Positions 32,301 through 55,241 of a DNA stretch of 64,000 nucleotides are shown piece after piece; position 1 is the first letter of the stretch; the number at the start of each line of letters is the position of its first letter. Position numbers and translations under genes: made by a program. The stretch is from Arsukibacterium perlucidum DSM 18276 (GTDB taxonomy: Bacteria > Pseudomonadota > Gammaproteobacteria > Enterobacterales > Alteromonadaceae), in contig NZ_KB907705.1 of NCBI RefSeq assembly GCF_000382165.1, forward strand, positions 62,001-126,000, in the 5' to 3' direction. A model generated the notes under the pieces. It ran no database searches. It saw nothing but the letters and a program-made list of their open reading frames with translations, and had not been told where the DNA came from.

Positions 32301-35300
32301 TACGATGTAAATGGTGATGGACTTAACGACTTGCTGGTAAGAATGCGTGATAGGCACATGGATGACAACAAAACTCAAGTATTTGATTATTGGGGTATTT
32401 TCATTGCCGAAAGAACAGCCGCTGGCAAATTACGTTTAACCCTGGCAGACCAAGATATTGGTGATAAACGTACCGGCCACAATACCGCCACTAATTTGCA
32501 AATTGGCGATTTGAATGGTGATGGTATCTCCGACTTTCTGTATTACGCTACCCATAGCGCACCTTACCACTGGCGCATAGAATACAACTCGCAAAGCAAA
32601 CTGAAACAACAGCATACAGTACTGCCAAGTAGTGTGCCGTTGCCTGAAGATGTACATTTTATGCAACTGGTTGATATTACTGGTAATGGCGTAAGCGATA
32701 TCGTTTATTACGACACCCGCTGGCGCATGTTAAGTTACCCTTATACCAGCGCACCGGTGGCTATTGACGGCCCGGCAATTACTGTTGCTTCAGAGAGTGT
32801 GCTGTTCGCCGATATGCGTGGCTGGGCGCAACCTGCGATGGTGGTAACTGACTTCGACAAAGGCCATATATATTGGCACGACTATGGTGTAACGATTGCA
32901 GGTGAGCCCTGTAAGCCAGATTGTCTGCCCCCTTGCAAACCAACTGATGACAGACCCTGCAACATCATTCAATCCGTCACGGCGGAGCAATATGCTGTTG
33001 AGACCAGTTTCGAGGTGTTAGACGGGCGGGAAGGTAAATTAAAACGCATAGTGTCAGGCCATGGTTTAGCGACAGAAATAGACTATGCCTATATGACCAA
33101 TGGCGCGGTATACAGCATTGGTTATGCGACCGAATCAACTGCCAGTGCGCCTATTTTTGAGCTTTCCGGCGGCATCCCGTTAGTGTCTCATGTGTCCTCA
33201 GATACCGGGCAGGGTAAGGTGAGTGTTGCCTACCAATATGAAGCCGGCCGCATTCAGGCCAGTGGCCGTGGCATGCTCGGTTTTGAAAAGCTGATTACCA
33301 CCGATTTACAAACCGGGGTAAAAACCACCACCAAATATTCGCAACGTTATCCGTACATAGGTATGCCGTTATACACCAAACAACAATACGGTGATAAAAC
33401 GCTTAGCCTGGCGAAGAACATGTACGAAAACCTGCTGTTAAATGACGGCAAAACAGTGTTTCCTTACCTTAAGCGCTCAGCTGAATCTCGCTACGTGGTT
33501 AGCTACGATGAATATGGTTATGGCAACGCCGAGTATGTTTCAACGGTGGCCACGGACAATAGCTATGTAGCCAAGAGTGATGGCCGTTACGCTGTGCTGG
33601 AGCAAAGCTTAGTGGCAACCTCTGATAGCGGCACAGGGCTGGTCAGAACGGTAACCACCAGCAATCAGTTCCGGCATGAAAATATAGATAAGTGGTTGTT
33701 AAACCGGGTCTCTGAAACCACGGTTAGGCATGAACAAGGCACAGGCAACCTGTACACTTCTGATATTTGTGTTACCTGTACTGAGCCGGGTGGCCCTTTT
33801 AATGTATCAGTAAATATGACGCCAGATCCCGCTGCCAGCGTTAGCAGGGTGGCAGAGTTTTCTTATTTCAGTAATGGCTTACTGGAGTACGAAATTACTG
33901 AGCCGGAGGGCACAGAGCAGGAGTACAGCAAAACCAGCTATAGCTATGATGCGTTTGGCAATATACAAACGACCACCATTAGCAGTAAAGTTGGTGCTGA
34001 AAAAGCATTCGAATTTTCGCGTAGCAGCACTAATGTGTACGATGCCGCCGGCCGTTATCTAGAGGCTAAACAGATTAATGGTGTAGAGGTTGCCAGTTAC
34101 AGTAACTTTAATGCCTTAGGCCAACCGCAAACGGTAACCGAAAACGGTATTCGCACCGTGCTGCGCTATAACGCCTTTGGCCAGCCGGTATTTAGCCGTG
34201 AGCAAACAGACAGTAATCAGGTTAGTGGCCGTTACAGCATAATTACCCGTGGTTATACTGCTGCTGCGGTTGGTTTACCCTCTGTAGGCGTAACGGGCTA
34301 CAGCTACCAGCGCGTAAAACAAGGCGGCGCACCGACCCAGTGGAAAATTGCGGATGCCGCCGGCCGTGAATTAGCCAGTGTAGTCGAAGCCTTTGCCAGC
34401 GGTAGTTACGTAGTAAAACGCACTGAGTATGACGCCATGGGCCGGCCGTACCGGGTATCGCAGCCAGCGTTTAGTTCAGCCACTAGCCAGTGGCACACTA
34501 CCACCTATGATGACTTTGGTCGCCCGGTGCAACTGCTGGCCGCAGATAACACCCGAACCGACATCGCTTATCATAAGTTGGCTGTAACCTCTACTATAAG
34601 TAACTTCTGGAGCGGTGAACAGGCGCAAACCAAAACTGAAACCAAAGACGCATTCGGCCAGCTGGTCAGGGCAACAGATGCAGCAGGTAGCTTAGGTTAC
34701 TACTACGACGCTACCGGTAATTTACTTCGAGTTAGCGGCGTCGATGGTCAAGCTGTAATAATGACTTACAACAGCCGTGGTCATAAACAAACCATGCAAG
34801 ATCCCGACAGTGGTAACTGGCAATATACGTATAACGCACTGGGCGAGCTGAAAACCCAAACTAACCCGAGAAATCACCTTACTACCACCTGGTATGATAA
34901 TTTTGGCCGTAAGATGCAGGAAACCATTACCCATGGCACCAATACCCTGCGTGATACCCAGTGGGCCTACAGTGATCAAACCGGGCATACTGTGCGCAAC
35001 CTGGTGGTGGCTGAAACAGTTGCCAACGGCCCAACCCGGCTAATGGATTACGACAATCTAGGCCGGCTGGAGCGCAGTGAATTATATATAGATGGTGAAA
35101 TACTGGTCGAGCGCACCACTTATGATGAGTTCAGCCGGGTATTTCAGGTATTTGACGCCAGCGGTAACGACTTCGGGGTGCAGTATGAATATCAGAACGG
35201 TTATTTAAAAGCGAAATGGGAAGCGCGCTACGGCACCAGTGGCGAGCACAGTGTACGCTTTCAGAATATTGTGGCGATGGATGCACTGGGCAATGTTACT

Positions 35301-37367
35301 GAAACTGTGGCAGGGAATAACCGCACCACCTGGCGCACGCACAATGATGCATCGGGCATGCTGGAAACTATCACTACTGAAGGTGGGTTACAAGCCTGGG
35401 AATACGAGTTTGATGGTATGGGTAATTTACGTTCGCGTCGCGACGAAAACCATAAGCTACTGCCACTGGATGGCGGCGCGCCGGTAAGCTTTGCTGAGAG
35501 CTTTAGCTATGACAGCCTGAACCGGCTGGAACAGGTTGAAAACAATAACGTTGTCACCTTAAGCCTGAGCTATTTTGCCAATGGCAATATTAAAACCAAG
35601 TCGGATGTGCAAGGCGGCGCAGCCTACCAATACGGCACCAAAGCCGGCCAGTGTGGCCGGAACAGTGGCCCGCGGGCGGTAAGCCAAATAGGTACTCAGG
35701 GCTATTGTTACGACGCCATGGGCAACCAGACACACCAGTACAATAATGGTGCACTGGTGCGGCAAATAGAGTACGACGCCACCGGCAAGGCATCACGTAT
35801 TCGCAGCTTCAACACCAATGCAGCCAATGGCAGCTCACCGGGTGATAGCTTTTATAGTTACGACGGTAGCCGCAGCCTGGTAAAGCGCCATGTAACAGAG
35901 CAAGGCAGTACCAAAATCTTTTACCAGCATGGCGGGGTAGAGCTGATAGTGGAAGACGGCGCCAGACGTTACCGGCGCACCCTGGGTAATGCCATTGTTG
36001 AGCGCAGCGGCAATACCTTGCATACCAGCTATGTATACACCGACCATTTAGGCAGTGTTGATGTAATAACTAATACGGCGGGGCTGCAGCTGGAAAAGCT
36101 AAGCTTTGATGCCTTTGGTAAACGGCGCCAGGTTTACACCGCAGCGCACCAACCGGTAGCGCTGTCGCTAGCTAATATTTTAAACCGCACCAGCCGTGGC
36201 TTTACCGGGCATTTGCAGGTAGACCACGCCAGTATTGTCCATATGGGCGGCAGAATATACGACAGCCATATCGGCCGCTTCCTGCAAGCCGACCCCTTTG
36301 TGCAGGCACCCAGCAATAGCCAAAGCCATAACCGCTATAGTTATGTGCTAAATAATCCGCTAAGTTATACCGACCCTAGTGGGTATTTTTGGAAGAAACT
36401 CTGGAACGATATTAAGCCTTTTATCGGCGCTATAGTTGCAGTCGTAGGCTCTATAGCTTGTCCAGCCTGTTCGCCAATGTTGATAGGTGCGATAGCGGGG
36501 GCGGCAGGCGCTGCGGCCAATGGTGGTAACATTCTGCAAGGTGCGGTTATTGGGGCATTTAGCGCTGCAGCTTTTAGCGGAGTTGGAGAGGCCTGGCCTG
36601 CAGGCTCTTTTGGTAATGTAATGGGCAACGCAGTGGTAGGCGGCATGATGAATAGCCTGCAAGGAGGTAAGTTTGGTCATGGCTTCTTTGCAGCAGGGTT
36701 TAGCGCGGCGTTTAAACGAGGCATCAATAAAATAGGTGGCGGTGAGGCATCGCATACAGCACATCGCATTGTTGCCGCTGCAGCTATAGGTGGTACAGCG
36801 TCAAAGATCAGTGGCGGAAAGTTTGCTAATGGTGCAGTAACTGGCGCATTCTCGCAGGCGTTTAATGGTGAGCGAAGAAATAAGCTCGACAACGCAATTA
36901 AAAGTGCTGATGAACAATTAGCGGCACAAGCTGCTGAATGGAAACATGAAGACGATGCAGCGAAAGCTTTTGGCTTGGCAGTAGCGGATTTATCAGCTAA
37001 ATACGATATTGAATTGGGTGCTACAATCTTTAATCGCGATGGTGTGATTGGTATCAGTAAAATATATACTGATTATCAACGAGGTGGGGTGGCATCACGT
37101 TATCTGAACGACAAAGATGCAACGGCCTTGGCTCATACCCATGGTACTCCAGCTCTTAGCGATTTAACGTTTAGTAATGACGACTATAACTACTATTTAA
37201 ACAAGAGTGAATTGCTTCAACGGCCAATCGGAGGGTATCTCGCTCTTCCTGGCAAATATGGTGTTCTTAAGTTTAATACGGCGGGCTATTTAAGAACACC
37301 ACCTGAATGGAGAGGTACATCGCTACACTGTTCAAACATCACATATCCAGGTCAAGGGTGCCATTAA
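29361..37367 (+). CDS. Giant SpvB/Rhs YD-repeat protein with DUF4329-like C-terminus
   Basis: This open frame of 2,668 codons is a polymorphic-toxin-like protein. In order: Cys-rich repeats of about 93 residues with GPWTY and CTDLAGxRFPA (first copy about 29283-29560, then 29991, 30270, 30552); two GSGSAGSISP-type bacterial repeats (29560-29970); an SpvB domain (about 30900-31600); six FG-GAP-like motifs such as DLNADGKADLLYY (31830-32700); YD repeats (about 33850-36000); and the Rhs core end GRFLQADPFVQAPS with NPLSYTDPSG (36270-36390). The last 325 residues are a Gly/Ala-rich hydrophobic linker, then a domain with AHTHGTPALSDLTFSNDD, like DUF4329. Export needs the signal peptide cut off by the TAG at 29301, so the gene may be inactive unless read through. 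Confidence 0.88.
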   Translation: MQGCYPWTGHEPGTMRAASGVSGPWTYNTAGTHTTQWYCIDMAGGRFPANASQFLTATRTVVEPSYTVSAGSGSAGSISPTSRTVNQGNTTTFTISPQPGYQISSTSGCNGILSGNTYTTGPITANCFVGADFSPIIYSISAKSGSGGSISPMSRNLFYGAKATFSLTPQAGYKIANVTGCNGSLSGNSYTTGPVTANCAVNVSYVKLPKVVKFAWEPSSVYVGQPTSFHWEVENVAGCYAVTAGVGADPNRAASGVSGPWIYAEPREHTSKMYCTDLAGNRFPANSNEFLTAPHSVKAIPQPVVRQFEWIPATVYVGESTTFYWNIENVTGCYAVTAGVGADPNRAASGESGPWTYAEPREHTSKVYCTDLAGNRFPANSNEFITANQSIKAIPQPVVNRFEWVPATVEIGKPTSFYWDISNVSACTAVTAGVDSDPNRAASGSSGPWTYLEPREHLTKWHCTDLAGKRFPADPNSFLEATRIVEAASSLPQASIDDPVAPSTQAIVADTTVIGGTSGAFRVDESGAATYSLPVQLPTGIAGNTPELSLNYHSSAGNGPLGAGWSIGGMSSISRCRQTPIQDGEFKAITLADNDRFCLDGQRLIVVEGNYGETGSVYATEIDTQVKVTALGDLYGGPEYFEVRRPDGSVSFYGNTENSRFTAESGPAISWAISEVTDLLNVASNKIKYQYQFAGNEQLLSTVTYSGNTVSFSYDTLEQPDRPQIYIFDRAITPTSQLNSVTVKNHNNQQVYQVSLAYETAPLSGMQRIYQITECGTDTSNCLKPLLLEWFDAAENSPAFKTTASAGSSLTKEDGIVFSQPADMTGNGLADWVYINKKNSLYTVYYKENRGHSFDTDKLYKSISFSSSTEAPVFRIADLNADGKADLLYYTTEWYLCTEAISDCTAIGVTTKEIALHDFNGNGLLDILTGDFTLLTNTKGGFSAPETVEFNTGLSSDCGSTALGSFVCMQNSKNIESSISYDVNGDGLNDLLVRMRDRHMDDNKTQVFDYWGIFIAERTAAGKLRLTLADQDIGDKRTGHNTATNLQIGDLNGDGISDFLYYATHSAPYHWRIEYNSQSKLKQQHTVLPSSVPLPEDVHFMQLVDITGNGVSDIVYYDTRWRMLSYPYTSAPVAIDGPAITVASESVLFADMRGWAQPAMVVTDFDKGHIYWHDYGVTIAGEPCKPDCLPPCKPTDDRPCNIIQSVTAEQYAVETSFEVLDGREGKLKRIVSGHGLATEIDYAYMTNGAVYSIGYATESTASAPIFELSGGIPLVSHVSSDTGQGKVSVAYQYEAGRIQASGRGMLGFEKLITTDLQTGVKTTTKYSQRYPYIGMPLYTKQQYGDKTLSLAKNMYENLLLNDGKTVFPYLKRSAESRYVVSYDEYGYGNAEYVSTVATDNSYVAKSDGRYAVLEQSLVATSDSGTGLVRTVTTSNQFRHENIDKWLLNRVSETTVRHEQGTGNLYTSDICVTCTEPGGPFNVSVNMTPDPAASVSRVAEFSYFSNGLLEYEITEPEGTEQEYSKTSYSYDAFGNIQTTTISSKVGAEKAFEFSRSSTNVYDAAGRYLEAKQINGVEVASYSNFNALGQPQTVTENGIRTVLRYNAFGQPVFSREQTDSNQVSGRYSIITRGYTAAAVGLPSVGVTGYSYQRVKQGGAPTQWKIADAAGRELASVVEAFASGSYVVKRTEYDAMGRPYRVSQPAFSSATSQWHTTTYDDFGRPVQLLAADNTRTDIAYHKLAVTSTISNFWSGEQAQTKTETKDAFGQLVRATDAAGSLGYYYDATGNLLRVSGVDGQAVIMTYNSRGHKQTMQDPDSGNWQYTYNALGELKTQTNPRNHLTTTWYDNFGRKMQETITHGTNTLRDTQWAYSDQTGHTVRNLVVAETVANGPTRLMDYDNLGRLERSELYIDGEILVERTTYDEFSRVFQVFDASGNDFGVQYEYQNGYLKAKWEARYGTSGEHSVRFQNIVAMDALGNVTETVAGNNRTTWRTHNDASGMLETITTEGGLQAWEYEFDGMGNLRSRRDENHKLLPLDGGAPVSFAESFSYDSLNRLEQVENNNVVTLSLSYFANGNIKTKSDVQGGAAYQYGTKAGQCGRNSGPRAVSQIGTQGYCYDAMGNQTHQYNNGALVRQIEYDATGKASRIRSFNTNAANGSSPGDSFYSYDGSRSLVKRHVTEQGSTKIFYQHGGVELIVEDGARRYRRTLGNAIVERSGNTLHTSYVYTDHLGSVDVITNTAGLQLEKLSFDAFGKRRQVYTAAHQPVALSLANILNRTSRGFTGHLQVDHASIVHMGGRIYDSHIGRFLQADPFVQAPSNSQSHNRYSYVLNNPLSYTDPSGYFWKKLWNDIKPFIGAIVAVVGSIACPACSPMLIGAIAGAAGAAANGGNILQGAVIGAFSAAAFSGVGEAWPAGSFGNVMGNAVVGGMMNSLQGGKFGHGFFAAGFSAAFKRGINKIGGGEASHTAHRIVAAAAIGGTASKISGGKFANGAVTGAFSQAFNGERRNKLDNAIKSADEQLAAQAAEWKHEDDAAKAFGLAVADLSAKYDIELGATIFNRDGVIGISKIYTDYQRGGVASRYLNDKDATALAHTHGTPALSDLTFSNDDYNYYLNKSELLQRPIGGYLALPGKYGVLKFNTAGYLRTPPEWRGTSLHCSNITYPGQGCH

Positions 37368-43792: not shown

Positions 43793-46105
43793 ATGGCCAA
43801 TAACTATAACAATGATGCACAGCACAAGTTTACCCGTTCGGCCCTTAAACCCAGCCTGTTAGCATTGGCTATCAGCAGCTATCTGGCGGTGCCGGCGATG
43901 GCACAGCAACAGGACGGAGCTGAAGCTGAATTAAAACTGGAACGTATTGAAGTTACTGCCCGTCGCACAGTGGAAAGCCTGCAAGAAGTGCCGGTGGCGG
44001 TTACTTCGATAGGTGCTACTGATATTGCAGAGCGCGGTTTGGCCTCAGTAGTTGAAATACAGCAGTTTTCGCCAAATACCACCTTGCAGGCCAGTCGGGG
44101 TACCAACTCTACTCTGACTGCATTTATCCGTGGTGTCGGCCAGGAAGACCCATTGTGGGGTTATGAGCCGGGCGTCGGTATCTATATTGATGATGTCTAT
44201 GTGGCCCGGCCACAAGGTGCAGTGCTGGATATCCTGAACGTTGAACGGATTGAAGTGCTACGCGGCCCCCAGGGTACCCTGTATGGTAAAAATACCATTG
44301 GCGGTGCCTTGAAGTATGTTACCCGCGAGATGACCGGTGATACTGAGTTTTCGGTAAGCGGCACCGTCGGTAGTTATAATCAGCGGGATGTAAAAGTTAC
44401 GGGGCAGATCCCACTGATTGCCAATACCCTTTACCTGGGCGTGGGTTATGCTAATTTACAACGTGACGGCTACGGTAATTTTCTGACCTCGGCCTTGCCC
44501 GGCCAGGACGGTGAGAATTACAACAAAGACTTACAGGCACTGCGTCTGACCCTGGAATACCGGCCGCAGGATAATTTATTTTTCCGGCTTAACTACGATA
44601 AAACAGAAGACGATTCCAACGCCAAAGGCGGCTACCGGTTACTGCCCAGTTTGTTAACCGATGCGCCGGTGCCAGACAGCGTCTACGATTCATACACCAG
44701 TATGCCTACCGGGAATAAAGTTGAGACGGATGGCATCAGTTTAACTGCTTCATGGGATATCAACGATAACTATACTCTGAAGTCGATAACTTCGAAGCGG
44801 ACCAGTTATTCGCCAACCAACATCGATTTTGACAATACCTCGCTGAAAATTTTTGATGTACCGGCAATTTATGATGATGAAAGTTTTACCCAGGAACTGC
44901 AGTTAAATTATCAGACTGACGGTTTTAAAATGGTCTCAGGTTTGTACTACTACACTTCTGATTCTTGCGGCGTATTCGATGCTGTTTTGGAAGTTTTAGG
45001 CCAATCGTTGGGTTTGCCGGGTTTGACCCGCGAGGTGGGTGGTTGCAGTAACGGCGACAGCACCGCGGCCTATGCTCAGGGCAGTTATGACTTAAATGAC
45101 AAATGGTCAGTTACCGCTGGTTTACGCTACACCAAAGATGAAAAAGAGGCCACAGTGCGCAATGGTTTGATTTTCGCTACGGTGTATCCTGAGTCAGGTT
45201 GGATCCCAGGCTATGTGCGGCCAGATGGCTTAACCACGCCAGTGGTGCTGGATGACAACGAAAGCTGGACCAAGCTGACACCAAAAATTGGGGTCGAATA
45301 TCAGCACAGCAGCGATATGATGCTGTTCGCCAGCTTTAGCCAGGGCTTTAAATCCGGTACCTTTAACCCGCGGGCAACCGTTGCCGAGCCGGCAGCAGAT
45401 CCTGAAACGGTTAATTCATATGAAATTGGTATTAAGAGTGACTGGAACGATAATCTGCGGGTAAACGCTACCTTATTTATGCTGGACCATAAAGATCGCC
45501 AGTACATCTCAGTTATTCCGGACCCTGACGATGCTTCGGCGCTGAACCAGCGCCTGGGTAATATAGGCCGCTCAGAAGCGACTGGTGCAGAACTGGAAGT
45601 GGTGTGGTTAGCCAGCCGCAATCTGAATATCTATGCCAACGTTGGTTTGATCGACGCTAAGTTTAAAGAAGCGCTCACTTTTGACCCGGTTGCAGGTGCA
45701 GTCGATATTTCTGATCGTTTTACCATCACCAATACGCTGGAAACCACCGCTACAGTGGGCTTTAGTTACGATATGATTACCGATATTGGTGATATCGTCT
45801 TTAATGGTAACTATGCTTATCGCAGTGACTATGATCTGGTGGAGCTGGACAACCTGTTATCGCAGGATGCTTATGGCTTGCTGAATCTGGGTGTGACCTG
45901 GCTGAGCAAGGATGGCCAGTGGCGGGTGGGCTTACATGGTAAGAACCTGACCGATGAGCAGTACTTAATCGGTAACTATGCCTTTATCGCACCAGATCCA
46001 GCTAATCCGGGTGGTTTTATTCCGGGCTTAGGTGGTGATAATACCCTGATTGGTTATTATGGTGCGCCACGTGAAATCAGCTTAACGGTAGCCTACCGCT
46101 TCTGA
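43793..46105 (+). CDS. TonB-dependent outer-membrane receptor
   Basis: The 770-residue protein has a signal peptide (to about AMA-QQ, residue 35), a plug domain (ERIEVTARRTVESLQEVPVAV, VERIEVLRGPQGTLYGKNTI) and a beta-barrel ending in a terminal aromatic (VAYRF). It takes up a large or scarce substrate across the outer membrane with TonB-ExbBD energy. The ATG at 43793 has GGAGAG 6 nt upstream; the open frame from 43523 runs through the promoter region. Divergence from gntP and the hydrolase lipoprotein suggests the same substrate class. Confidence 0.93.
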   Translation: MANNYNNDAQHKFTRSALKPSLLALAISSYLAVPAMAQQQDGAEAELKLERIEVTARRTVESLQEVPVAVTSIGATDIAERGLASVVEIQQFSPNTTLQASRGTNSTLTAFIRGVGQEDPLWGYEPGVGIYIDDVYVARPQGAVLDILNVERIEVLRGPQGTLYGKNTIGGALKYVTREMTGDTEFSVSGTVGSYNQRDVKVTGQIPLIANTLYLGVGYANLQRDGYGNFLTSALPGQDGENYNKDLQALRLTLEYRPQDNLFFRLNYDKTEDDSNAKGGYRLLPSLLTDAPVPDSVYDSYTSMPTGNKVETDGISLTASWDINDNYTLKSITSKRTSYSPTNIDFDNTSLKIFDVPAIYDDESFTQELQLNYQTDGFKMVSGLYYYTSDSCGVFDAVLEVLGQSLGLPGLTREVGGCSNGDSTAAYAQGSYDLNDKWSVTAGLRYTKDEKEATVRNGLIFATVYPESGWIPGYVRPDGLTTPVVLDDNESWTKLTPKIGVEYQHSSDMMLFASFSQGFKSGTFNPRATVAEPAADPETVNSYEIGIKSDWNDNLRVNATLFMLDHKDRQYISVIPDPDDASALNQRLGNIGRSEATGAELEVVWLASRNLNIYANVGLIDAKFKEALTFDPVAGAVDISDRFTITNTLETTATVGFSYDMITDIGDIVFNGNYAYRSDYDLVELDNLLSQDAYGLLNLGVTWLSKDGQWRVGLHGKNLTDEQYLIGNYAFIAPDPANPGGFIPGLGGDNTLIGYYGAPREISLTVAYRF

Positions 46106-46177: not shown

Positions 46178-46819
46178 ATGATAGCTATCATCGCCGATGA
46201 TCATCCTTTATTCCGGGTTGCCTTAGCCCAGGCCTCTTCAGCCATACTAGGCAGCGAAGCTTTGTTACTGCAGGCTCAGACTATGGAACAAATCTGGCCA
46301 TTACTGCGCCAGCACCCTGATACCCACTTTATATTTCTTGATTTAAAAATGCCGGGCTCTGACGGTTTTACCGGCCTGAGTGCGCTTCGCACTGAATACC
46401 CTGACGTACCGGTGATTATGGTGTCAGCTGAAGAAGACCCGGTCATTATTAAGCAGGCGTTGACGTTAGGTGCTGCCGCCTATATTCCTAAGTCAGTGCC
46501 ATTAGAACTGTTATCTGATGCTATCAGCACCGTATTAAATGGTGACACCTGGCTACCGCCTGGCCTTGCAGACGATGTTAAAAATGCTAAGCCACTTATC
46601 GACAACGATTTTGCCCAGCGGTTAGAGCAGCTGACCCCCCAGCAGTTTCGTGTATTAAAAATGATTGCCGATGGTTTGCTGAATAAACAAATTGCCTACG
46701 AAATGAACGTGCAGGAAACCACCATTAAGCAGCATGTATCGGCTATTTTGCGCAAGCTTAACGTCAATAATCGTACATTAGCCGGTATTATGTTCGAAAA
46801 GTTGCGCTTGCCTGCTTAA
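46178..46819 (+). CDS. LuxR-family response regulator, CrbR/ErdR type
   Basis: The 213-residue protein has a receiver domain (phospho-acceptor Asp55 in FLDLKMPG, acidic pair ADD near residue 7, Lys in YIPKSVP) and a C-terminal LuxR helix-turn-helix (LTPQQFRVLKMIADGLLNKQ, ETTIKQHVSAILRKLNV). It is the likely partner of the hybrid kinase at 51753-55241; such kinase/regulator pairs (CrbSR, MxtR-ErdR) control acetate and small-molecule carbon use. It converges with the GCS2-type ligase gene, overlapping by 4 bp. Confidence 0.86.
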   Translation: MIAIIADDHPLFRVALAQASSAILGSEALLLQAQTMEQIWPLLRQHPDTHFIFLDLKMPGSDGFTGLSALRTEYPDVPVIMVSAEEDPVIIKQALTLGAAAYIPKSVPLELLSDAISTVLNGDTWLPPGLADDVKNAKPLIDNDFAQRLEQLTPQQFRVLKMIADGLLNKQIAYEMNVQETTIKQHVSAILRKLNVNNRTLAGIMFEKLRLPA

Positions 46820-47871
46820 GTAACCAGTGCCATCTGGGGTTGCTGGTTAGTTTTCATATTTTGACGCTGGATCGCCGCGCCCCCACCATGCTGCAGCATG
46901 CTTTTAATGGTATCTGCCACCAGTGCTACCTGATGTTGCTGCAACAATGGCATTAGCTTATCCAGCATCCGATGCCAAAACACTGTGACGGCCTCGGCGG
47001 CGTCTTTATGCTGAAGAGTTGCAGCTAATCCTCGCCTTGCTGCCTGCCAACGATCTTCACGTAGCAACCAGTCATCGCCATGATCAGGCTGCTGGCCGTT
47101 TGCAAGCTGTTGTGCCAGCCAGATGGCAATAGCGGCAGTGAGAACCGCCAGGGCGGCGGCGTCTTCCGGCGCAGTTTGCATATCACATATACGAACCTCA
47201 ATAGTATTGTATAGCGGATGCAGCCTGGCGTCGGTCCAGATACTGGCCGCTTTATGAATACAGCCGCGTTGCAGTAATTCTTGGATCCGGGCCTGCTCGG
47301 CCTGTACCGAACGGATGAGTGGTGGTGTGCCGGTGCGTGGCATCAGCAGAAATTGCATGGCACGGTAAGAGCATAAGCCGGTATCGCGGCCACGATAAAA
47401 CGGTGAGTTAGCACTTAACGCCAGCAGCGGTGCCAGGTAAGGCCGCAATCCATTAAACACCTGCACCAGCAAGCTGTTATCGCTGATACCGATATGGGTG
47501 TGCATGCCAAATAAGGTTAGCGCCTTTACCGTATCCTGATATTCATCAACTACTGCCTGATAGTCCGGGGTCATTTGCAGCGCGGGCCAGTCCAGGCTGG
47601 GGTGGGTACCGCCACAGTAAAGCTCCAGCTGCATGCTTTGGCTAACCCGCGCCAGAAACGCGCGCGATTGCAGAATATGCTGATGCAAACTTTGCAGACT
47701 AAAACAAACCGGCGTGGCATGCTCCAGCATGCCCTGATGAGCCTCGTGCGACCATTGTCCGGCCGGGCAGTCTGGCTCTGCCCGCAATTGGTTAAGCGGC
47801 ATAACAAAGGGCTGCTTATTCGCCAGCAGTAAAAACTCTTCCTCATTACCAAAAGTGAATTGTACGCTCAT
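46816..47871 (-). CDS. Carboxylate-amine ligase, YbdK/GCS2 family
   Basis: The 351-residue protein belongs to the glutamate-cysteine ligase type 2 family: FGNEEEFLLL opening, GMHTHIGISD, CSYRAMQFLLMPRTG, and NTIEVRICDMQ. These enzymes form an amide from a carboxylate (often gamma-glutamyl) and an amine with ATP. YbdK itself is a weak gamma-glutamyl-cysteine ligase; the true substrate here is unknown. It is the last gene of a four-gene operon, overlapping the exporter gene by 4 bp. Confidence 0.88.
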   Translation of the reverse strand: MSVQFTFGNEEEFLLLANKQPFVMPLNQLRAEPDCPAGQWSHEAHQGMLEHATPVCFSLQSLHQHILQSRAFLARVSQSMQLELYCGGTHPSLDWPALQMTPDYQAVVDEYQDTVKALTLFGMHTHIGISDNSLLVQVFNGLRPYLAPLLALSANSPFYRGRDTGLCSYRAMQFLLMPRTGTPPLIRSVQAEQARIQELLQRGCIHKAASIWTDARLHPLYNTIEVRICDMQTAPEDAAALAVLTAAIAIWLAQQLANGQQPDHGDDWLLREDRWQAARRGLAATLQHKDAAEAVTVFWHRMLDKLMPLLQQHQVALVADTIKSMLQHGGGAAIQRQNMKTNQQPQMALVT

Positions 47872-49409
47872 GTGCTGCCGGTCCTTGCCTGAGGCGGAGA
47901 GAGTTGTGGGGAAAGTGAGAGTGAGTTGTGTTTGCGGCCAAACAGATATAGCGCCAGAAACAACGTTGCCATTAATAGCAGGCTGATACTGAGCAGGGCA
48001 AAGGCGCCATTAAAAGCCCAGATACTGCTGTGCTGACTAAGCTGCTCTGTCAGCTGAGATGCTGTTGGATCCTTTTGCTGGTGGTTACTCAGTGCCATTG
48101 TATGCTGATTAAACAACAGCAGACTTTGTTGAAAAAATACCACTTTATAATGTTCGACATAGGTAACCAGCCCTGCCACGCCAACCGCGCCGCCCAGATT
48201 CCGGGCAACGTTAAACAAAATAGCAGCAGAAGGCGCGTCCTGATCAGACACCACCTGCATTGATAGCAGAGTAAGTGGCATAATAAGTAATGGTACGGCA
48301 ACAACACGAATTAGCTGGGGCCAGAGAAATTGCTCACCGGCAAAGTCTGTGGTCATCTGACTGCATAATGCAGTGCTGACTGCACACAGCAAAGCACCTG
48401 CTACGATAGCCAGCCAGGGGTTTAGCCGCGGTGCATACTTAATCATCAGTGGTAACATCAGTAGTTGTGGCACTGCTGCCATTAAAATAACCTGCGCTAC
48501 CTGCGCCGGGCTGTAACTGTGCACTGAGATCAGGTAATAAGGGATCAGGTAAACAAAGCCGTAAATAACGATACCGGCCATAAAGCTGGCCAGGCAGATT
48601 AATGCAAAGCGGAACGAGGCCAGCAAGCGCACATTTAATACAGGCTGGCGCAGCTGAGTTTGCAGATAGCAAATGTAAATCAGGCCGACAAAACCACATA
48701 CCAGGCTGAAGCGAATCGTTTGGTCGCTAAGCCATTCACGTTCAACACCGTGCTCCAGCGCAAACACCAGGCTACCCAGCGACAGTGAGAGTAAGCCTAT
48801 GCCAAAGGCATCCAGAAAGTTGTTACGGTGCTCTGTCACCTGGCCATGGTTGTTTGGTCCGGGCAGTGCGAAGAGCAGGCCGGTTAACGCTGCCATCCCA
48901 AGTGGAATGTTAATATAAAATAACCAGGGATAGTCGGCGGCGCTAAGTAAGCCGGCAAAGGAGGGGCCGGCGACCGGTGCCAGTGAGGCAAACACAGAAA
49001 ATACCCCGAAGGCAGCAGCATGTTGCTGCTGCGGCAGGAGCAACTTAATAGAGGTATGAACCAGCGGCAGCAAAATGCCGCCAAAGGCACCCTGCACAAT
49101 ACGACTGGCAATTAAGGTATTAAGGCTGTTGGCATGAGCACAGGCAATGGATGCCAGCATAAAACCACACAACACCAGCACGACCAGCCGTTTCAGGCCA
49201 AGGCGGCGCATCAGCAATGGCATCAGCGGCATAGCGGCAATTTCGGCAATAATGTAGCTGGAGGTGATTAAGGTCATTTCACGCAGCGTCGCCCCTATCC
49301 GGGCTTGCAACAGTTCAGTAGCTGTATTGGTAATATTAATACCGGCCAGCGCCATAAAGGCACCCAGCATAATGGCAACAGCAGCAATACTCTGACGGGA
49401 TAGTTGCAT
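47868..49409 (-). CDS. DHA2-family MFS exporter, EmrB-like
   Basis: The 513-residue protein has about 14 membrane segments, typical of the DHA2 drug:H+ antiporter group (LGAFMALAGINITNTA, SYIIAEIAAMPLMPLLMRRL, VQGAFGGILLPL). With the HlyD-type adaptor 6 bp upstream it should form a tripartite pump with an outer-membrane factor encoded elsewhere. The neighbours (ATP-grasp-like and GCS2-type enzymes) suggest export of an amide product made by the operon (inference), although drug efflux is possible. Confidence 0.9.
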   Translation of the reverse strand: MQLSRQSIAAVAIMLGAFMALAGINITNTATELLQARIGATLREMTLITSSYIIAEIAAMPLMPLLMRRLGLKRLVVLVLCGFMLASIACAHANSLNTLIASRIVQGAFGGILLPLVHTSIKLLLPQQQHAAAFGVFSVFASLAPVAGPSFAGLLSAADYPWLFYINIPLGMAALTGLLFALPGPNNHGQVTEHRNNFLDAFGIGLLSLSLGSLVFALEHGVEREWLSDQTIRFSLVCGFVGLIYICYLQTQLRQPVLNVRLLASFRFALICLASFMAGIVIYGFVYLIPYYLISVHSYSPAQVAQVILMAAVPQLLMLPLMIKYAPRLNPWLAIVAGALLCAVSTALCSQMTTDFAGEQFLWPQLIRVVAVPLLIMPLTLLSMQVVSDQDAPSAAILFNVARNLGGAVGVAGLVTYVEHYKVVFFQQSLLLFNQHTMALSNHQQKDPTASQLTEQLSQHSSIWAFNGAFALLSISLLLMATLFLALYLFGRKHNSLSLSPQLSPPQARTGST

Positions 49410-49415
49410 CGGCAG

Positions 49416-50429
49416 TTAATCAGCTCTGGTCAGAGTAACCCGGGCTGATAAGCCCGGGCGCAGCACGGGCAATTCGCTGTCGCTAAGCCGGATCCGCACC
49501 GGTACCCGTTGTTCAATCCGAATAAAATTTCCCGATGTATAGTTAGGGCTGATTAAACTGAGTTTAGCGCCGGCCAGTGGTGAGGCCGCAATCACTTCGC
49601 CGGCAAAGCGTTGCTCAGGAAAAGCGTCGATCCGCACTTCGGCGCGTTGGCCCGGCGTGATGCCGGCGATAACACTTTCTTTGAAATAGGCTTCAATCCA
49701 GATCGCCTCTGTGGGCACCAGTGTGGCAATATTATCGCCGGCGTTAACCAGTTCGCCGGCCTGAACGCTAATGCTGGATAAAGTACCGCTGGCTGGCGCT
49801 AACAGTCGGAACTGGCTGATCCGTCTGCTGCTGTCTTGTTGGGCCAGGCTGTTTTTTGCCAGGTCCTGCTGCAGAATGGCAGCCTGCAGTTGCCATTGCT
49901 GTTGTTGCAATGTCAGGCCCTGTCGCTGCCCCTGCAGCTTTTGTTGCACTATATTGGCCCGTTGCACGCGATGCGAGGCTTGCTGCAAGTCGCGCTGCTG
50001 CACCAGACCTTGTTGCTGCAGTTGCTGCTGGCGATATAAATCGGCTTCCGCCAGCTCGAGTTCTGATTGGGCCAGGGCAATATCAAACTTTAACTGCTGC
50101 AGCTGATGGCGGATTATCGCCTGTTGGTTGGCATTGGCATCCAGTTGCTGTTGCCATTGCAACTGCTCAGCCTGCAGCTTGGCTAACTGGTGTTGCTCGG
50201 TGGCATCGTCCAGTTGCAGCAAGGGCTGGCCGGCTGCGATCTGGCTCAGTTCCAGCGCGTAACGTGCCAACACTATGCCGCTTTGCTGAGCTTTAATATA
50301 CAACAGATCGGCTTCAACATAAGCCATGTCAGTGCGAAGCGTGCGGCGCCATTGTTGCTCCCACAGGGCATAACCACTTAACATCAGGCTTGCCAGCAGC
50401 GTTGGCAGTAGCCACCATTTTATGCGCAT
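49416..50429 (-). CDS. HlyD/EmrA-type membrane fusion protein
   Basis: The 337-residue periplasmic adaptor has an N-terminal membrane anchor (residues 4-22, WWLLPTLLASLMLSGYALW), lipoyl/barrel-sandwich halves (VEADLLYIKAQQSGIV, LLAPASGTLSSISVQAGEL) around a long Gln-rich coiled-coil hairpin (about residues 85-205), and a beta-barrel. The ATG at 50429 has GGGGAG upstream and gives MRIKWWLL; the frame upstream to 50600 overlaps the ATP-grasp-like gene. It overlaps that gene by 10 bp. Confidence 0.9.
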   Translation of the reverse strand: MRIKWWLLPTLLASLMLSGYALWEQQWRRTLRTDMAYVEADLLYIKAQQSGIVLARYALELSQIAAGQPLLQLDDATEQHQLAKLQAEQLQWQQQLDANANQQAIIRHQLQQLKFDIALAQSELELAEADLYRQQQLQQQGLVQQRDLQQASHRVQRANIVQQKLQGQRQGLTLQQQQWQLQAAILQQDLAKNSLAQQDSSRRISQFRLLAPASGTLSSISVQAGELVNAGDNIATLVPTEAIWIEAYFKESVIAGITPGQRAEVRIDAFPEQRFAGEVIAASPLAGAKLSLISPNYTSGNFIRIEQRVPVRIRLSDSELPVLRPGLSARVTLTRAD

Positions 50430-51631
50430 ACTTTCTCCCCAGCTTCCCCAGCTTCCCCAGCTTCCTGAGCACACAGTGCTACAGTGGCACCGCCTGCTGT
50501 GTGCTGCTCGGTTTGCTGGTGGTTCATGCCGATGTAACCCCCGGCAGTTAAACGCGCCATCATTGCTACTGCCACCGGTTCTGCTGCGTTGTCTGGCCAC
50601 AAGCTCATTACCCGGATCTCGGTTTTCAGCTGGTGCTGCTGCGGTGTGGTAACACAGGGCGCATAGTTTACTTTTTGTTGCAGCATATAAGCTGCAGATG
50701 GCAGGGACGCCAGATAGGCCACAGTGGGAGACAGCTCTACGCCGCGACCGGCAAAATCGAATAAGGGTTTACAAACATGGTCTGCCAGCAAGGTGTCAGG
50801 CGCCGGACTGTTAACAAGACTGACCGGCGGTAACCAGGGGCCTTGCATAAACAGCATGCTGGCTTTGGAGACAAAATAATACCAGTCCGGGTGGCCGAGC
50901 CAGCTAACGTCGGCATCGGTCAGCAATCGTCTGGCTTGCTGCGCAACGGCCTGAGGCAGGGCCGCCAAAATGAGCCGGTTGTATATTCGATTTACTTTGC
51001 GCTCACGGCCATCCAGCCGATAAAACAGCTGACGGCCTTTGCGGTACAAAGCACTAACACAGAGCGGCTGCACGCCAAGCTGAGCGGTTAAAATAAAGCT
51101 CATGGCGGTGCGCTGCACCAATGGCTGGTAGTCCAGCATAATTATTTCACCTGTTCCACCGGTATTGCCCGGGTTGCTGCTCTGTTCAGGGTGCAGCATT
51201 TGTTGCCAAAGCTGCTGGCGTTGGGCTAAGGTCAGCCCTGCCAATACAGTGGCGCCATACTGTTGTTCCAGAAAAAAGCTCATTGCCAGCATAGACGGAA
51301 AAGCCTGTAACTCAATCAGCTGCGGTACCAGTTGCTGTTGCTGGTTGCAGCAAAGCGCGAAGTCGACAGCAAAAAAGTGCGGCTTTGCCGGCGCGTTGCC
51401 CAGCAGGACATCTGATGGTAGCAAGGCTCTGACGCCAGCCAGGGTAGATTGCTGCATAGCCTGATTTATTACCGCAGCATTAGCGCTGAGCAAGCGGGTG
51501 CTAAGTTGTGGCGCCAATAGCAGCGGATAATCGGTCACCACATTGGTGCTGCTATGCTGCACCTGACGTTGCAATGCTGCCCGCGCGTCAGGCAGGTGGG
51601 GGGCGCTAACCAGGTTTAAATCCATTGCCAT
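50420..51631 (-). CDS. Uncharacterised ATP-grasp-like protein
   Basis: The 403-residue protein belongs to no family that I can name with certainty. Segments that suggest an ATP-grasp fold are CKPLFDFAGRGVELSPT (Lys then Gly-rich loop), KTEIRVMSLWPD and MMARLTAGGYIGMNH, with HPDWYYFVSKAS before them. This resembles circularly permuted ATP-grasp proteins that make peptide or amide bonds. It opens an operon with a pump and a GCS2-type ligase, so a two-ligase biosynthesis with export is inferred. A 9-bp tandem repeat near its end encodes GEAGEAGEAGE. Confidence 0.65.
   Translation of the reverse strand: MAMDLNLVSAPHLPDARAALQRQVQHSSTNVVTDYPLLLAPQLSTRLLSANAAVINQAMQQSTLAGVRALLPSDVLLGNAPAKPHFFAVDFALCCNQQQQLVPQLIELQAFPSMLAMSFFLEQQYGATVLAGLTLAQRQQLWQQMLHPEQSSNPGNTGGTGEIIMLDYQPLVQRTAMSFILTAQLGVQPLCVSALYRKGRQLFYRLDGRERKVNRIYNRLILAALPQAVAQQARRLLTDADVSWLGHPDWYYFVSKASMLFMQGPWLPPVSLVNSPAPDTLLADHVCKPLFDFAGRGVELSPTVAYLASLPSAAYMLQQKVNYAPCVTTPQQHQLKTEIRVMSLWPDNAAEPVAVAMMARLTAGGYIGMNHQQTEQHTAGGATVALCAQEAGEAGEAGEKVCA
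50434..50469. repeat. 9-bp tandem repeat at the ATP-grasp gene 3' end / HlyD start
   Basis: CTTCCCCAG units at 50443-50451 and 50452-50460, flanked by imperfect copies on both sides (TTCTCCCCAG, CTTCCTGAG). On the coding strand each unit is CTGGGGAAG, so every copy also carries a Shine-Dalgarno-like GGGGAAG close before the HlyD start codon at 50429. Confidence 0.75.
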
Positions 51632-51669
51632 AACATTGATGGTAAAAATGTTGCAAATGTTATCTTATT

Positions 51670-51684
51670 TGGGACTAAAGTAAA
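51670..51684. promoter_or_regulatory. Shared motif, site 2 (ATP-grasp operon)
   Basis: TGGGACTAAAGTAAA, 39 bp upstream of the ATP-grasp-like gene start. Its core ACTAAAGTA is the same as in site 3 and one base off site 1. Confidence 0.4.
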
Positions 51685-51752
51685 TTAGAGTTTCAGTTTA
51701 TTTTTTATGTGCTTTATATGAATTTATGTTGTGTTCACATGATCAGCTGATG

Positions 51753-54700
51753 TCAGCGCAGTAGCCGGCTGAATAGCTTTTTCAAGGCGGCGGGTTTCAG
51801 GGGCTTTAACAAAAAGTAAAAACCGCTATTCAGGGCTTGTTCGCGGATATTCTGGTCATGATCAGCCGAATGAATAATAACCGGCACATTTATCGCAAAG
51901 TGGCTGGCCAGTTGCTCAGCCACTGCGACACCGGTAGCGGCGTTATCCAGATGGTAGTCAAACAAACATAAATCTGGTTTCAGCCCCTGGCGAATGGCTG
52001 TCAGGGCTTCAGCCGGCTGACTAACCGCCGTAACCTGACATTGCCAGCTGCTTAACAGCGCGCTAACGGCACTGAGCAGATGGGCTTCGTTGTCCAGCAA
52101 CAAGACTTTCTTGCCGGCAAAGCTGGCACTGATTTCATTGCTGCTGGGCATACTCACCACAGCTGAAAGTGCCGGTGTTGTCGCTAACGGCAGCAACAGA
52201 TTAAAACAACTGCCTTTACCCGGTACCGATTGCACGCTGAGTGTATGGCCCAGAATGTCACTTATCCGCAGCGCAATGGCCAGACCGAGGCCAAGGCCTT
52301 TTTGATCCGGTTGGCTGCCTTGCTGAAACTCTTCAAAAATGCGCTGTTGGTCCGCTTTGGCAATGCCTACTCCGGTATCCATAACCCTTATTTGTAAATG
52401 CTTTCCAGCTCTTTTTACCCCCAATACCACCCTGCCGGCATTGGTGTAACGCACGGCGTTGGCCAGCAGGTTCTGGATAACCCGTTTCACCAGCTTGCGG
52501 TCGGTGCTGACACTAAGCTTACTGCTGTAGATCCGAAACTGCAGGCCTTTCTCAGCAGCCAGTGCTGCCGCATCGCGGCCAATATCATCCAGCAGCTGGC
52601 TGACCGCAACTGTCTGCGGGTAGGCTTTAATGACGCCGGAATCAAGCTTGGTTAAATCCAGAATAGCGGTAAGCAGCTCCTCGGCAGAATTAAGCGAGTT
52701 CGTCAGGTTGACACTCAGCTGACGTAGTTCAGGCGTGGTGCTTTGCTGGCGTAGTAAGCCTGCAAATAATGCCGCAGCATTGAAAGGCTGCATCAGGTCA
52801 TGACTGGCGGCCGCAAAAAACCGGGTTTTGGCGGCGGTGCTGGCTTCCAGCTGCTGCTGGGTTAGCTGCAATTGCTGATTGAGCTGCTGTAATTCATAAG
52901 TACGCTCGCTGACCCGTTGTTCCAGCAGGGTATTGCTTTGCTCCAGCTCAGTTTGCACGGCAATAAAAGAGCTGACATCGGTATACGTGGTGACAAAACC
53001 GCCGCCGGGTAACGGGTTACCCTGCATCTCCAGCACCCGGCCATCTTGCTGCTGGCGCTGGAACTTATAACTGCTGCCCTGGCGCAGAAAGCTTAGCCGT
53101 TTGCTGACTTCAGCCTCAATGTTTTCACTGTCAATCAGGCCACGCTGCAGGTTAAAGCGAATGACGTCGGCGACCGGTTTACCTACTTCAACCATGCCCG
53201 GCGGATAGCTGAACATGTCTATATAGCGCTGATTCCAGGCAATCAGCCGTAAATCGGCATCGACTACGCTTATGCCCTGGCTGATATTATCAATAGTCGA
53301 GAGCAGCAGTGCCTGGTTAAACTGAAATACCTGACTGGCTTCGTCCACAAAACGTTCAATGGTTTCCATTGGTAACTGGGCATGCCGGCCGGCGGCATCC
53401 ATAATTAACCGCATAGAGGCGCCACCAACCACGGCAGCCAGACTGCGCTCAGCGGCTTGTACCAGATTAAGCGGCGCCAGTTGGTTCTGGGCAGGAGCGG
53501 GGTCTTTTAGATTACGCAGCAGCAGGCGTCGTGCTTCTTTTTCACCGGCAAAGCGCTTTACCAGCAGATAGCAATCCTGCACGCTTAGCTGCGAGCTGCG
53601 ACGACTATGGTCGCTACTCAGCTGAGCTCTTAAGAAACGGCCACTTTCCAGCCATTCACTTATCCGGGTATTACTAAACTGACTTACCAGCAACACCATC
53701 AGGCAGTTTACCGATAAACTCAGCAATACCCCTAAACTTAACGGGTCTGCCTGCCAGCCAAACAACTGCTGTGGGGCCAGCCATGACATGCCAAAGGGCC
53801 CCTGGCTCAGCCAGTTTGAGCCCATTAAACCCGCCCGGCTGATTTCCGGCAGTAACAAAATATAAGCCCAGACTATCGCACCGCTGAGCACCCCGGCGAT
53901 AGCGCCCTGGCGGTTGACCTTGCGTGACAATAAACCAAGGATTAACGCCGGCGCCAGTTGCGCCACCAACGCAAACGCCATTAAACCCAGCTGGGCCAGG
54001 CCGGTTTCGGTACCAATAAAACGGTAGTACACAAAGCCCAGCGCCATAACGGTAAGCATGGCTGAGCGGCGCAATGTGGCCACTTTTACTTTATGCTGCA
54101 ATGCTGGTTGCAGCTGGCTGCTGCGGTAAATAAAGGGCGCAAGTAGTTCGTTGGTGATCATAATGCCCAGCACCACCGTCGCGACCACTACCATACTGGT
54201 GGCGGCAGAAAAGCCGCCCAGATAGGCCAGCAGGGCAATGTCGGTGCGGTTGGCTGCCAGCGGTAACTGTAATACCACGACATCAATATTGACATCATTG
54301 CCCAGCAACATGACGCCGGCCAGCGCCAGCGGCAGGGTAAAAATACTCATTAACAGTAAATACAGCGGGAAAATCCAGCGGGCACTGCGCAGATGGCTTA
54401 GTTTTTGGTTTTCAACAAAACTGACATGAAACTGCCGCGGCAAGCAGAGTGTTGCAAAAAAACCGAGCAAGGCGTGCAGCCAGTACGCATGCATTGGCAG
54501 CGCTTGCTCGCGCAACTTACTGATTGCCGGGTCAACAGCGGCACTGTCAAAGATACTGGCAAAACCGTCGAACATGCCAAACACCACAAAACAGCCAATT
54601 GCCAGTAAAGCCAGTAATTTAATCAACGATTCAAAGGCAATAGCCGTCATCAGGCCGGGGTTTGGCTGATGCGCCCTGGCACTTTTGCTGACGAATAGCA

Positions 54701-55241
54701 GGGCAAATACCGCCATCCACAAGCTGACATAAAAACCGGTATCGGTGTACCAGTGCACACCTACCTCAGCTTGCACCAGGGTATTAATACTGGTAGACAC
54801 AGCATGCAATTGCAGGGCGATGTAGGGAATCACCGCCATAATCAGGATCAGGGTAATTAATACTGCCAGCGAGCGGGAATGGCCAAAGCGGGTGGCAATA
54901 AAATCGGCAACTGAGGTAATGCGGTAGCGCCGGCAGGCGATGGCTATGCGGGCAATCAGTTTAAAACCAAACCAGAACAGAATAAAAGAGCCGATATAGG
55001 TGGGGGGGATCCACCAGCCGTTTACCGCAGCCTGAGCTGTTACCCCATAAAAGGCCCATGAGGTGCAGTAGATTGACAGGGCAAAGCTGAATACCCAGGG
55101 TGCCAGCGGATGCCGGGCCGTGATACGTCGGCCAAAGCGGCCAACACTGAATAAAATCAGCAGGTATACCAGTGAGATGGCGGCAATGGTGGCTAAACCA
55201 ATGCCGCTGCCATTTTCAATCATCTGTTGCGGTGAGGTCAT
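51753..55241 (-). CDS. Hybrid histidine kinase with sodium/solute symporter domain, CrbS type
   Basis: The 1,162-residue protein has an N-terminal SSF/SLC5-like transporter domain of about 13 membrane segments (residues 1-525), a PAS-like sensor (about 640-755), a coiled coil (765-800), a HisKA domain with the phosphorylated His814 (FFAAASHDLMQPF), an HATPase domain (N924, G-boxes DTGVGI and GLGLGLAIA) and a C-terminal receiver with Asp1095 (LCLFDYHLDN). This layout matches CrbS/MxtR kinases, which sense small carbon sources and phosphorylate a LuxR-type regulator. The likely partner is encoded at 46178. Confidence 0.9.
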   Translation of the reverse strand: MTSPQQMIENGSGIGLATIAAISLVYLLILFSVGRFGRRITARHPLAPWVFSFALSIYCTSWAFYGVTAQAAVNGWWIPPTYIGSFILFWFGFKLIARIAIACRRYRITSVADFIATRFGHSRSLAVLITLILIMAVIPYIALQLHAVSTSINTLVQAEVGVHWYTDTGFYVSLWMAVFALLFVSKSARAHQPNPGLMTAIAFESLIKLLALLAIGCFVVFGMFDGFASIFDSAAVDPAISKLREQALPMHAYWLHALLGFFATLCLPRQFHVSFVENQKLSHLRSARWIFPLYLLLMSIFTLPLALAGVMLLGNDVNIDVVVLQLPLAANRTDIALLAYLGGFSAATSMVVVATVVLGIMITNELLAPFIYRSSQLQPALQHKVKVATLRRSAMLTVMALGFVYYRFIGTETGLAQLGLMAFALVAQLAPALILGLLSRKVNRQGAIAGVLSGAIVWAYILLLPEISRAGLMGSNWLSQGPFGMSWLAPQQLFGWQADPLSLGVLLSLSVNCLMVLLVSQFSNTRISEWLESGRFLRAQLSSDHSRRSSQLSVQDCYLLVKRFAGEKEARRLLLRNLKDPAPAQNQLAPLNLVQAAERSLAAVVGGASMRLIMDAAGRHAQLPMETIERFVDEASQVFQFNQALLLSTIDNISQGISVVDADLRLIAWNQRYIDMFSYPPGMVEVGKPVADVIRFNLQRGLIDSENIEAEVSKRLSFLRQGSSYKFQRQQQDGRVLEMQGNPLPGGGFVTTYTDVSSFIAVQTELEQSNTLLEQRVSERTYELQQLNQQLQLTQQQLEASTAAKTRFFAAASHDLMQPFNAAALFAGLLRQQSTTPELRQLSVNLTNSLNSAEELLTAILDLTKLDSGVIKAYPQTVAVSQLLDDIGRDAAALAAEKGLQFRIYSSKLSVSTDRKLVKRVIQNLLANAVRYTNAGRVVLGVKRAGKHLQIRVMDTGVGIAKADQQRIFEEFQQGSQPDQKGLGLGLAIALRISDILGHTLSVQSVPGKGSCFNLLLPLATTPALSAVVSMPSSNEISASFAGKKVLLLDNEAHLLSAVSALLSSWQCQVTAVSQPAEALTAIRQGLKPDLCLFDYHLDNAATGVAVAEQLASHFAINVPVIIHSADHDQNIREQALNSGFYFLLKPLKPAALKKLFSRLLR

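Follow-up and report, generated by a model that had tools for sequence, protein, structure and literature searches.

Analysis of a 64,000-nucleotide stretch of the Arsukibacterium perlucidum DSM 18276 genome (contig NZ_KB907705.1, positions 62,001 to 126,000; referred to below as the window) revealed an operon of four minus-strand genes. It probably forms a self-contained cassette that has been exchanged horizontally and serves to make and export a small amide (pseudopeptide) conjugate. The first gene (positions 50420 to 51631 of the window) encodes a 403-residue ligase candidate, P0001, which is assigned here by alignment and profile searches to a putative family of circularly permuted ATP-grasp ligases that carries no name. 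It is followed by the genes for an HlyD/EmrA-type periplasmic adaptor of 337 residues with an ATG start (49416 to 50429), a DHA2 EmrB-type exporter of the major facilitator superfamily (MFS) of 513 residues (47868 to 49409), and a GCS2/YbdK-type carboxylate-amine ligase of 351 residues, P0004 (46816 to 47871).

A sequence-only reading of the window had described four tightly packed genes; the coordinates confirmed this arrangement as one operon, with a 10-bp overlap, a 6-bp gap, and a 4-bp overlap in operon order. The full gene order was also found, at the same place, in A. indicum SM2107 (L027) and Arsukibacterium sp. M30B15 (L028), so the absence of the gene set elsewhere, which that reading had named as an outcome against its proposal, was not seen. 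The ratio of nonsynonymous to synonymous substitution rates (dN/dS) was 0.09 to 0.30 across all four genes. The intact gene order in two further Arsukibacterium assemblies, together with these dN/dS values, indicates that the operon is not a chance arrangement.

The 403-residue protein and its relatives

Searches with the 403-residue protein alone returned FAST_2 as the best Pfam match (E = 0.051) and a best Protein Data Bank (PDB) chain with an E value of 1.5. There was no NCBIfam match at E ≤ 1 and no match to GSP_synth (PF03738; cut-off, 29.3 bits). The protein is present in 3 of 31 genomes of the genus. Among 369 class-wide genomes, no match beyond the gene itself covered more than 168 of the 403 residues; matches at E ≤ 1 occurred in 36 of these genomes besides its own, and in the two of these that were inspected (L004 and L008) no related open reading frame (ORF) was seen. 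A contig scan with two peptide patterns added a single relative, from a Chthonomonadaceae metagenome-assembled genome (MAG) of the Armatimonadota (L029; 31% identity, E = 1e-44). With this sequence included, profile A2 detected the family in 7 of 251 Armatimonadota genomes of unstated completeness. Among 398 Pseudomonadota genomes, profile A3, built from 10 sequences, detected no additional full-length member. The same profile found no relatives in viral contigs, and plasmids searched with P0001 and its relative from L042 contained none either.

The family alignment comprises 10 members, one of which (L038) lacks the N terminus. The three Arsukibacterium sisters are 78 to 90% identical, and the other seven sequences share 28 to 33% identity with P0001. 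Residues D90, E107, Q109, S113, K288, P289, G295, G297, Q318, E338, R340, and R360 are invariant in the alignment. These include the acid positions D90 and E107, and Q109 occupies the position of the ATP-grasp asparagine in 10 of 10 members. The 3' end of the A. perlucidum gene contains a 9-bp tandem repeat of 3.3 copies (50436 to 50465) that encodes an EAG repeat; this tail is different in L027 and missing from L028.

Sequence evidence for a putative circularly permuted ATP-grasp fold

Single members of the A3 set matched ten Pfam families at E ≤ 1, of which seven are related to ATP-grasp enzymes (best E value, 0.0049). Against NCBIfam, they gave one weak match to the ATP-grasp ligase MptN (E = 0.048) and five other weak matches, which were unrelated. 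PF03738 was matched by 2 of the 10 members (best E value, 0.033), under the cut-off of 29.3 bits. The profile of all 10 members returned Escherichia coli YgiC as the best PDB match (E = 0.0087, 78 positions). Comparison by hhalign with seven PF03738 relatives gave an E value of 0.0011 and aligned the stretches W..P.W...SK..LP and KPLFS..G..V; a control comparison of the family with GCS2 gave an E value of 0.049 and a probability of 1.1.

Profile A3 matched proteins in 9 of the 398 Pseudomonadota genomes at E ≤ 0.001, the gene of A. perlucidum among them. The other eight matches were five PF03738 proteins of 386 residues (540 to 555 bits), one protein each from genomes G711 and G736, and a low-complexity frame from G989, which was taken as a chance match. 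The G711 protein contains the motifs YDF...LIEVN, IYNR, FKP..GFGGRGV, LVQ, and KTDIR in the same linear order as the family and matches ATPgrasp_ST and ATP-grasp_3 near E = 0.01; searched alone against the PDB, it gave no match at E ≤ 10. All compared proteins align collinearly, with the acid motif in the N-terminal part and KP..G..GV in the C-terminal part. N-terminal stretches of the G711 and L029 proteins matched the C-terminal ends of canonical profiles (positions 234 to 258 of 278 in ATPgrasp_ST, 118 to 158 of 169 in R2K_3, and 107 to 129 of 147 in R2K_2), and their C-terminal stretches matched earlier profile parts (26 to 112 of 160 in ATP-grasp_3 and 110 to 161 in ATPgrasp_ST), as expected of a circular permutation. 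These segment matches, which come from the L029 and G711 proteins and not from P0001, are all sub-threshold (E = 0.009 to 0.1), and the L042 protein scanned likewise gave no ATP-grasp match.

Taken together, these comparisons support the 403-residue protein as a member of a putative family of circularly permuted ATP-grasp ligases whose closest neighbors are the GspS/YgiC group. Each piece of evidence is weak, but all of them point one way. The label "ATP-grasp-like" given in the sequence-only reading is thus supported by the sequence and sharpened, with fold and activity as predictions. Several observations weigh against this assignment. None of the matches attained a curated cut-off; the hhalign probability against the PF03738 relatives was only 20%; and E-x-Q is present in all 10 members, in place of the E-x-N of the G711 protein and the PF03738 relatives. 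AlphaFold models, built from only 3 and 4 sequences, reached predicted local distance difference test (pLDDT) values of 31 and 38, and the fold is therefore judged from sequence. The lack of an ATP site in a predicted structure, which had been named as an outcome contradicting the earlier label, was not seen; the signature residues are conserved, and the two models carry the low pLDDT values given above.

The E-x-Q motif in 10 of 10 members and the weak similarity to known ATP-grasp enzymes would also fit a degenerate, noncatalytic ATP-grasp relative that assists the GCS2 enzyme in forming a single amide bond. The other signature residues, however, are invariant in 10 sequences of which seven are only 28 to 33% identical to P0001, and the asparagine is, according to part of the ATP-grasp literature (PMC4431377), occasionally replaced by another polar residue. 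We therefore consider this explanation improbable and retain the assignment as a candidate ligase.

A second circularly permuted ATP-grasp-like family without a name, of about 379 residues and with E-x-N intact, was observed in two Pseudomonadota genomes (L148, L149, and L186:7802-10195). A 16-kb stretch around one of its members contained no relative of the GCS2 queries.

The GCS2 ligase and the export pump

P0004 passes PF04107 (E = 2.3e-45; 155.6 bits, cut-off 21) and TIGR02050 (220 bits, cut-off 176.4) and matches the YbdK structure 1r8g (E = 1.9e-28). P0004 has residues E10, E12, E50, H124, H126, E225, R227, and D230 in common with E. coli YbdK and with three further relatives. The protein is predicted to act as a carboxylate-amine ligase. 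The genes for the HlyD adaptor (PF13437, E = 7.2e-19; TIGR00998, E = 3.9e-47, below its cut-off) and the DHA2 permease (TIGR00711, 248.8 bits, above the cut-off of 230.2) are adjacent in the operon and encode EmrA/EmrB-like proteins, both far below the EmrA and EmrB equivalog cut-offs. Of the two amide-bond-forming enzymes and the tripartite pump proposed earlier, the GCS2 enzyme and the adaptor-permease pair thus stand as named, and the first ligase is ATP-grasp-like by its sequence.

Co-occurrence of the two ligases

Of the 31 genomes of the genus (G000 to G030), the three that encode the 403-residue protein are also the three that encode the GCS2 protein. In the Armatimonadota, GCS2 matches at E ≤ 0.001 were found in 34 of 251 genomes and were below 1e-50 in 18; the remaining 16 genomes, with short, weaker stretches only, were set aside. 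Full-length GCS2 was present in 6 of the 7 genomes that carry the family, compared with 12 of the 244 that do not (Fisher test, P = 3.8e-7, a value that is too optimistic because kinship among the genomes is ignored). Genomes G574 and G656 contain one operon with the order ATP-grasp-like protein, GCS2, class-I glutamine amidotransferase (GATase), and 403-residue family member; the first gene is called ATP-grasp-like by resemblance (R2K_2 at 0.0082 in one genome, no match at 0.01 in the other). Co-occurrence of the two ligases, for which the sequence-only reading had proposed a neighborhood check, was thus seen in Arsukibacterium and in six of seven Armatimonadota genomes, within one operon in two of the six.

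Other observations weigh against this picture. No GCS2 match was found in G426, a MAG and the seventh family-carrying genome, and the two ligase genes lie on separate contigs in 4 of the 7 Armatimonadota genomes. The link between the pump and the ligases is confined to Arsukibacterium: the Armatimonadota stretches that were read contained no HlyD or DHA2 relative at E ≤ 1e-5 and hold instead a GATase, a further ATP-grasp-like protein, or an M29-peptidase-like protein. A tree of 45 GCS2 sequences included 5 of the 12 Armatimonadota genomes that have GCS2 but lack the family. Separate from these five, the GCS2 proteins of the six genomes with the family grouped in a single clade (support, 0.995), and P0004 was placed outside it on a long branch. 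Joint transfer of both ligases between the phyla is therefore not supported.

In the four genomes with the ligase genes on separate contigs, an M29-peptidase-like gene adjoins the GCS2 gene in three and lies one ORF off in the fourth (L075). In G426, an M29-like gene adjoins the 403-residue family gene, with esterase-like and ATP-grasp-like genes behind it. In 3 of the 7 Armatimonadota genomes (L042:5706-6719, L043:6007-7008, and L029:3022-4065), the family is accompanied by an additional conserved ATP-grasp-like protein, whose Pfam match is weak at best.

Insertion hot spot and recent exchange

The operon lies between a CrbS-like hybrid kinase gene (51753 to 55241, minus strand; Pfam PAS_7, HisKA, HATPase, and REC) and a CrbR-like NarL-type response regulator gene (46178 to 46819, plus strand; identified by library match), in agreement with its earlier placement inside a kinase/regulator pair. 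The GCS2 and regulator genes are convergent, with a 4-bp tail-to-tail overlap. In the loci compared, the kinase gene is a neighbor that is kept whether the operon is present or absent.

The gap between the convergent regulator and kinase genes was surveyed in the 30 of 31 genus genomes that contain the regulator (E ≤ 1e-60), over 1.5 kb each, with ten longer stretches. It was empty in 14 of the 30, with the kinase gene ending 11 to 119 bp behind the regulator gene. Cargo was found in the other 16, namely, this operon in 3, relatives of a PD40 protein in 6 and of a C39-peptidase ABC exporter in 5, and other genes in 2. The last two cargoes are an acetyl-CoA-hydrolase-like gene followed by a C39-type exporter (L095/L140) and an HlyD-like stretch (L108). 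Within the genus, the regulator-kinase gap (46819 to 51753 in the window) is thus a hot spot for insertions.

Comparison with A. indicum revealed a synonymous divergence (dS) of 0.12 to 0.23 for the operon genes, whereas the values for the kinase and regulator genes were 0.83 and 1.70. Against L028, all six genes had dS values of 0.88 to 1.21. The best-fitting block of exchange with the A. indicum lineage (46661 to 51844) contained 312 mismatches in 5175 positions (6.0%), compared with 1622 in 9501 (17.1%) outside. The G+C content of the operon is 53.8%, compared with 48.8% for the window. The dS contrast and the mismatch block indicate that the operon was exchanged recently, nearly exactly as a unit, with the A. 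indicum lineage. The operon is thus a cassette exchanged with this lineage, in either direction.

On the other side of the regulator gene lies a TonB receptor gene (43793 to 46105), whose product is 88 to 96% identical in 6 of 12 compared loci; in the remaining 6, the receptor at the same place is about 48 to 53% identical. The window also contains an ORF of 2668 codons at 29361 to 37367.

The flanking pair and the operon leader

The flanking pair resembles CrbS/CrbR, the acetate two-component system described in PMC5715377, in its architecture; the N-terminal region of the kinase appears SLC5-like on reading of the sequence and has no Pfam match. The arrangement differs from the CrbS/CrbR system in that the operon is an optional insert between both genes and has a leader without an ACTU site. 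A CrbR weight matrix was built from six published ACTU sites, some of which are merely predicted in the source paper; it gave about 50 matches of at least 7.5 per random 64 kb. The acs promoter of the same genome contains a strong ACTU-like site (score, 16.7; L143, near 3512 to 3528), in keeping with a working CrbS/CrbR system.

The 121-bp leader between the kinase gene and the operon (51632 to 51752, minus strand) is likely a promoter region; the surrounding stretch has 88% mean column identity in three species, and a sigma-70 scan listed no site in the leader. Control of the operon by CrbR was considered and rejected: the best leader site scored 6.6, compared with 14.9 to 21.6 for the training sites, and it differs in both relatives. 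The earlier statement that the operon carries a shared motif, which was not named, was not confirmed, as neither of two conserved upstream blocks recurs significantly elsewhere in the window. For block AACATTTGCAACATTT, the single additional copy differs by 3 mismatches, which is at chance level and was rejected as evidence; the second block has no other copy. Matches to other upstream regions were only 9 to 13 bp long, and ACTAAAGT, with 3 occurrences compared with 1.6 expected, was likewise rejected as a shared motif. Position in the gap alone does not establish regulation, because in 27 of the 30 genomes the gap is empty (14) or holds other cargo (13). We concluded that the operon occupies the gap of the pair without evidence of control by it.

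Proposed pathway and alternative explanations

In the proposed pathway, the GCS2 ligase would phosphorylate a carboxylate, by analogy the gamma-carboxyl group of glutamate, and form an amide with an amine or amino acid. The putative permuted ATP-grasp ligase would then activate another carboxylate by phosphorylation, most likely the one on the first product, and couple it with a second amine, comparable to the use of spermidine by YgiC and YjfC. The EmrAB-type pump, with a TolC-type channel encoded elsewhere, would export the product. The order of the ligases, their substrates, the TolC partner, and the pump's cargo are predictions from the gene set. No peptide precursor was found upstream of the operon; between 51600 and 51760, the only ORFs of at least 20 codons besides the two genes are two plus-strand ORFs inside the 403-residue protein gene.

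The same gene set could instead serve detoxification, with the ligases conjugating an incoming toxic amine or acid and the pump removing the conjugate, so that the operon would be a module for tolerance and not for production. Foreign compounds are the usual cargo of EmrAB-type pumps, and gamma-glutamylation of polyamines is a detoxification-type conjugation. The patchy presence of the cassette in the genus (3 of 31) and the peptide-spermidine ligase activity given for YgiC and YjfC in part of PMC12568646 are in line with such a role. Two ligases, however, exceed the needs of simple detoxification, and the Armatimonadota stretches that were read yielded no pump relative at E ≤ 1e-5; we regard this explanation as unlikely. 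A role in modifying proteins or the cell surface, in which the ligases would assemble a peptide-like tag or polymer and the pump would export a precursor, is very improbable. Iyer et al. reportedly predicted in 2009 that ATP-grasp and glutamine synthetase (GS)-fold ligases tag proteins or build surface polymers, but no protease, carrier, or glycosyltransferase is encoded among the four genes, and DHA2 pumps carry small molecules.

We favor a cassette that makes and exports a small amide conjugate. The corresponding proposal of the sequence-only reading fits the sequence evidence. It is possible, although we hold this only tentatively, that the 403-residue protein founds a new family of permuted ATP-grasp ligases with a GCS2 partner in at least two phyla, that the two enzymes jointly make a new class of doubly amidated (e.g., gamma-glutamyl) pseudopeptides, and that the Arsukibacterium cassette adds its own exporter. 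C39-type peptide exporters occupy the hot spot in some relatives, and the product may therefore be secreted and act in competition or signaling.

These results provide a first functional context for a family of putative ligases that no Pfam or NCBIfam model captures. In two phyla, they link this family to the YbdK-type GCS2 enzymes, about whose role little is understood. As a minimal four-gene system, the cassette would allow a direct search for the product by comparison of culture supernatants. New free-standing amide-bond-forming enzymes are also interesting as biocatalysts.

Comparison with known systems

A search of the titles and abstract openings of open-licence literature revealed no description of this four-gene set. 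The 403-residue family shares with GspS, YgiC, and YjfC (PF03738) the stretch W..P.W...SK..LP...KPLFS..G..V, the permuted order, with an acid hairpin close to the N terminus and KP..G close to the C terminus, and a length of about 390 residues, as in YgiC. It differs from this group in the cut-off that it does not reach, in E-x-Q instead of E-x-N, and in its C-terminal end. The host genome also encodes a true PF03738 protein of its own (L131). Peptide-spermidine ligase activity has been assigned to YgiC and YjfC (PMC12568646, in part), and a section of PMC12506659 states that YgiC does not make glutathionylspermidine. P0004 exceeds the family cut-offs of YbdK-type GCS2 ligases and shares their conserved residues but occupies a long tree branch, and E. 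coli K-12 ybdK, unlike the P0004 gene, is not in an operon with ATP-grasp and pump genes. The adjacent adaptor and DHA2 permease genes are shared with EmrAB efflux systems; here, they stand in an operon with two ligases.

Pathways in which two free-standing amide ligases act in turn include those of dapdiamide (DdaF/DdaG), E-64 (Cp1B/Cp1D), and cystargolide (CysC/CysD), as summarized in part of PMC12568646, where no export of E-64 is mentioned in that part. For pseudouridimycin, a portion of PMC6586884 calls both ligases, PumK and PumM, ATP-grasp-type and lists a transporter in the cluster. For the HiVir cluster of Pantoea, parts of PMC8417944 list an ATP-grasp protein and an MFS transporter along with pavM, the product of which is called a carboxylate-amine ligase in the text and an ATP-grasp protein in the table. 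The operon shares with the dapdiamide, E-64, cystargolide, and pseudouridimycin pathways two stand-alone amide-bond-forming enzymes that would act in turn to give a small natural product. Those four pathways combine an ATP-grasp enzyme with an amide bond synthetase (ABS) or use two ATP-grasp-type ligases, whereas the operon combines a putative permuted ATP-grasp ligase with GCS2 and an EmrAB-type pump, without tailoring enzymes.

In 2009, Iyer et al. reportedly also predicted that ATP-grasp and GS-fold ligases work in combination to synthesize peptides, and the general kind of system, two stand-alone amide ligases with a small product, is therefore known already. The ligase family, its partnership with GCS2, and the slot between the kinase and regulator genes appear to be new.

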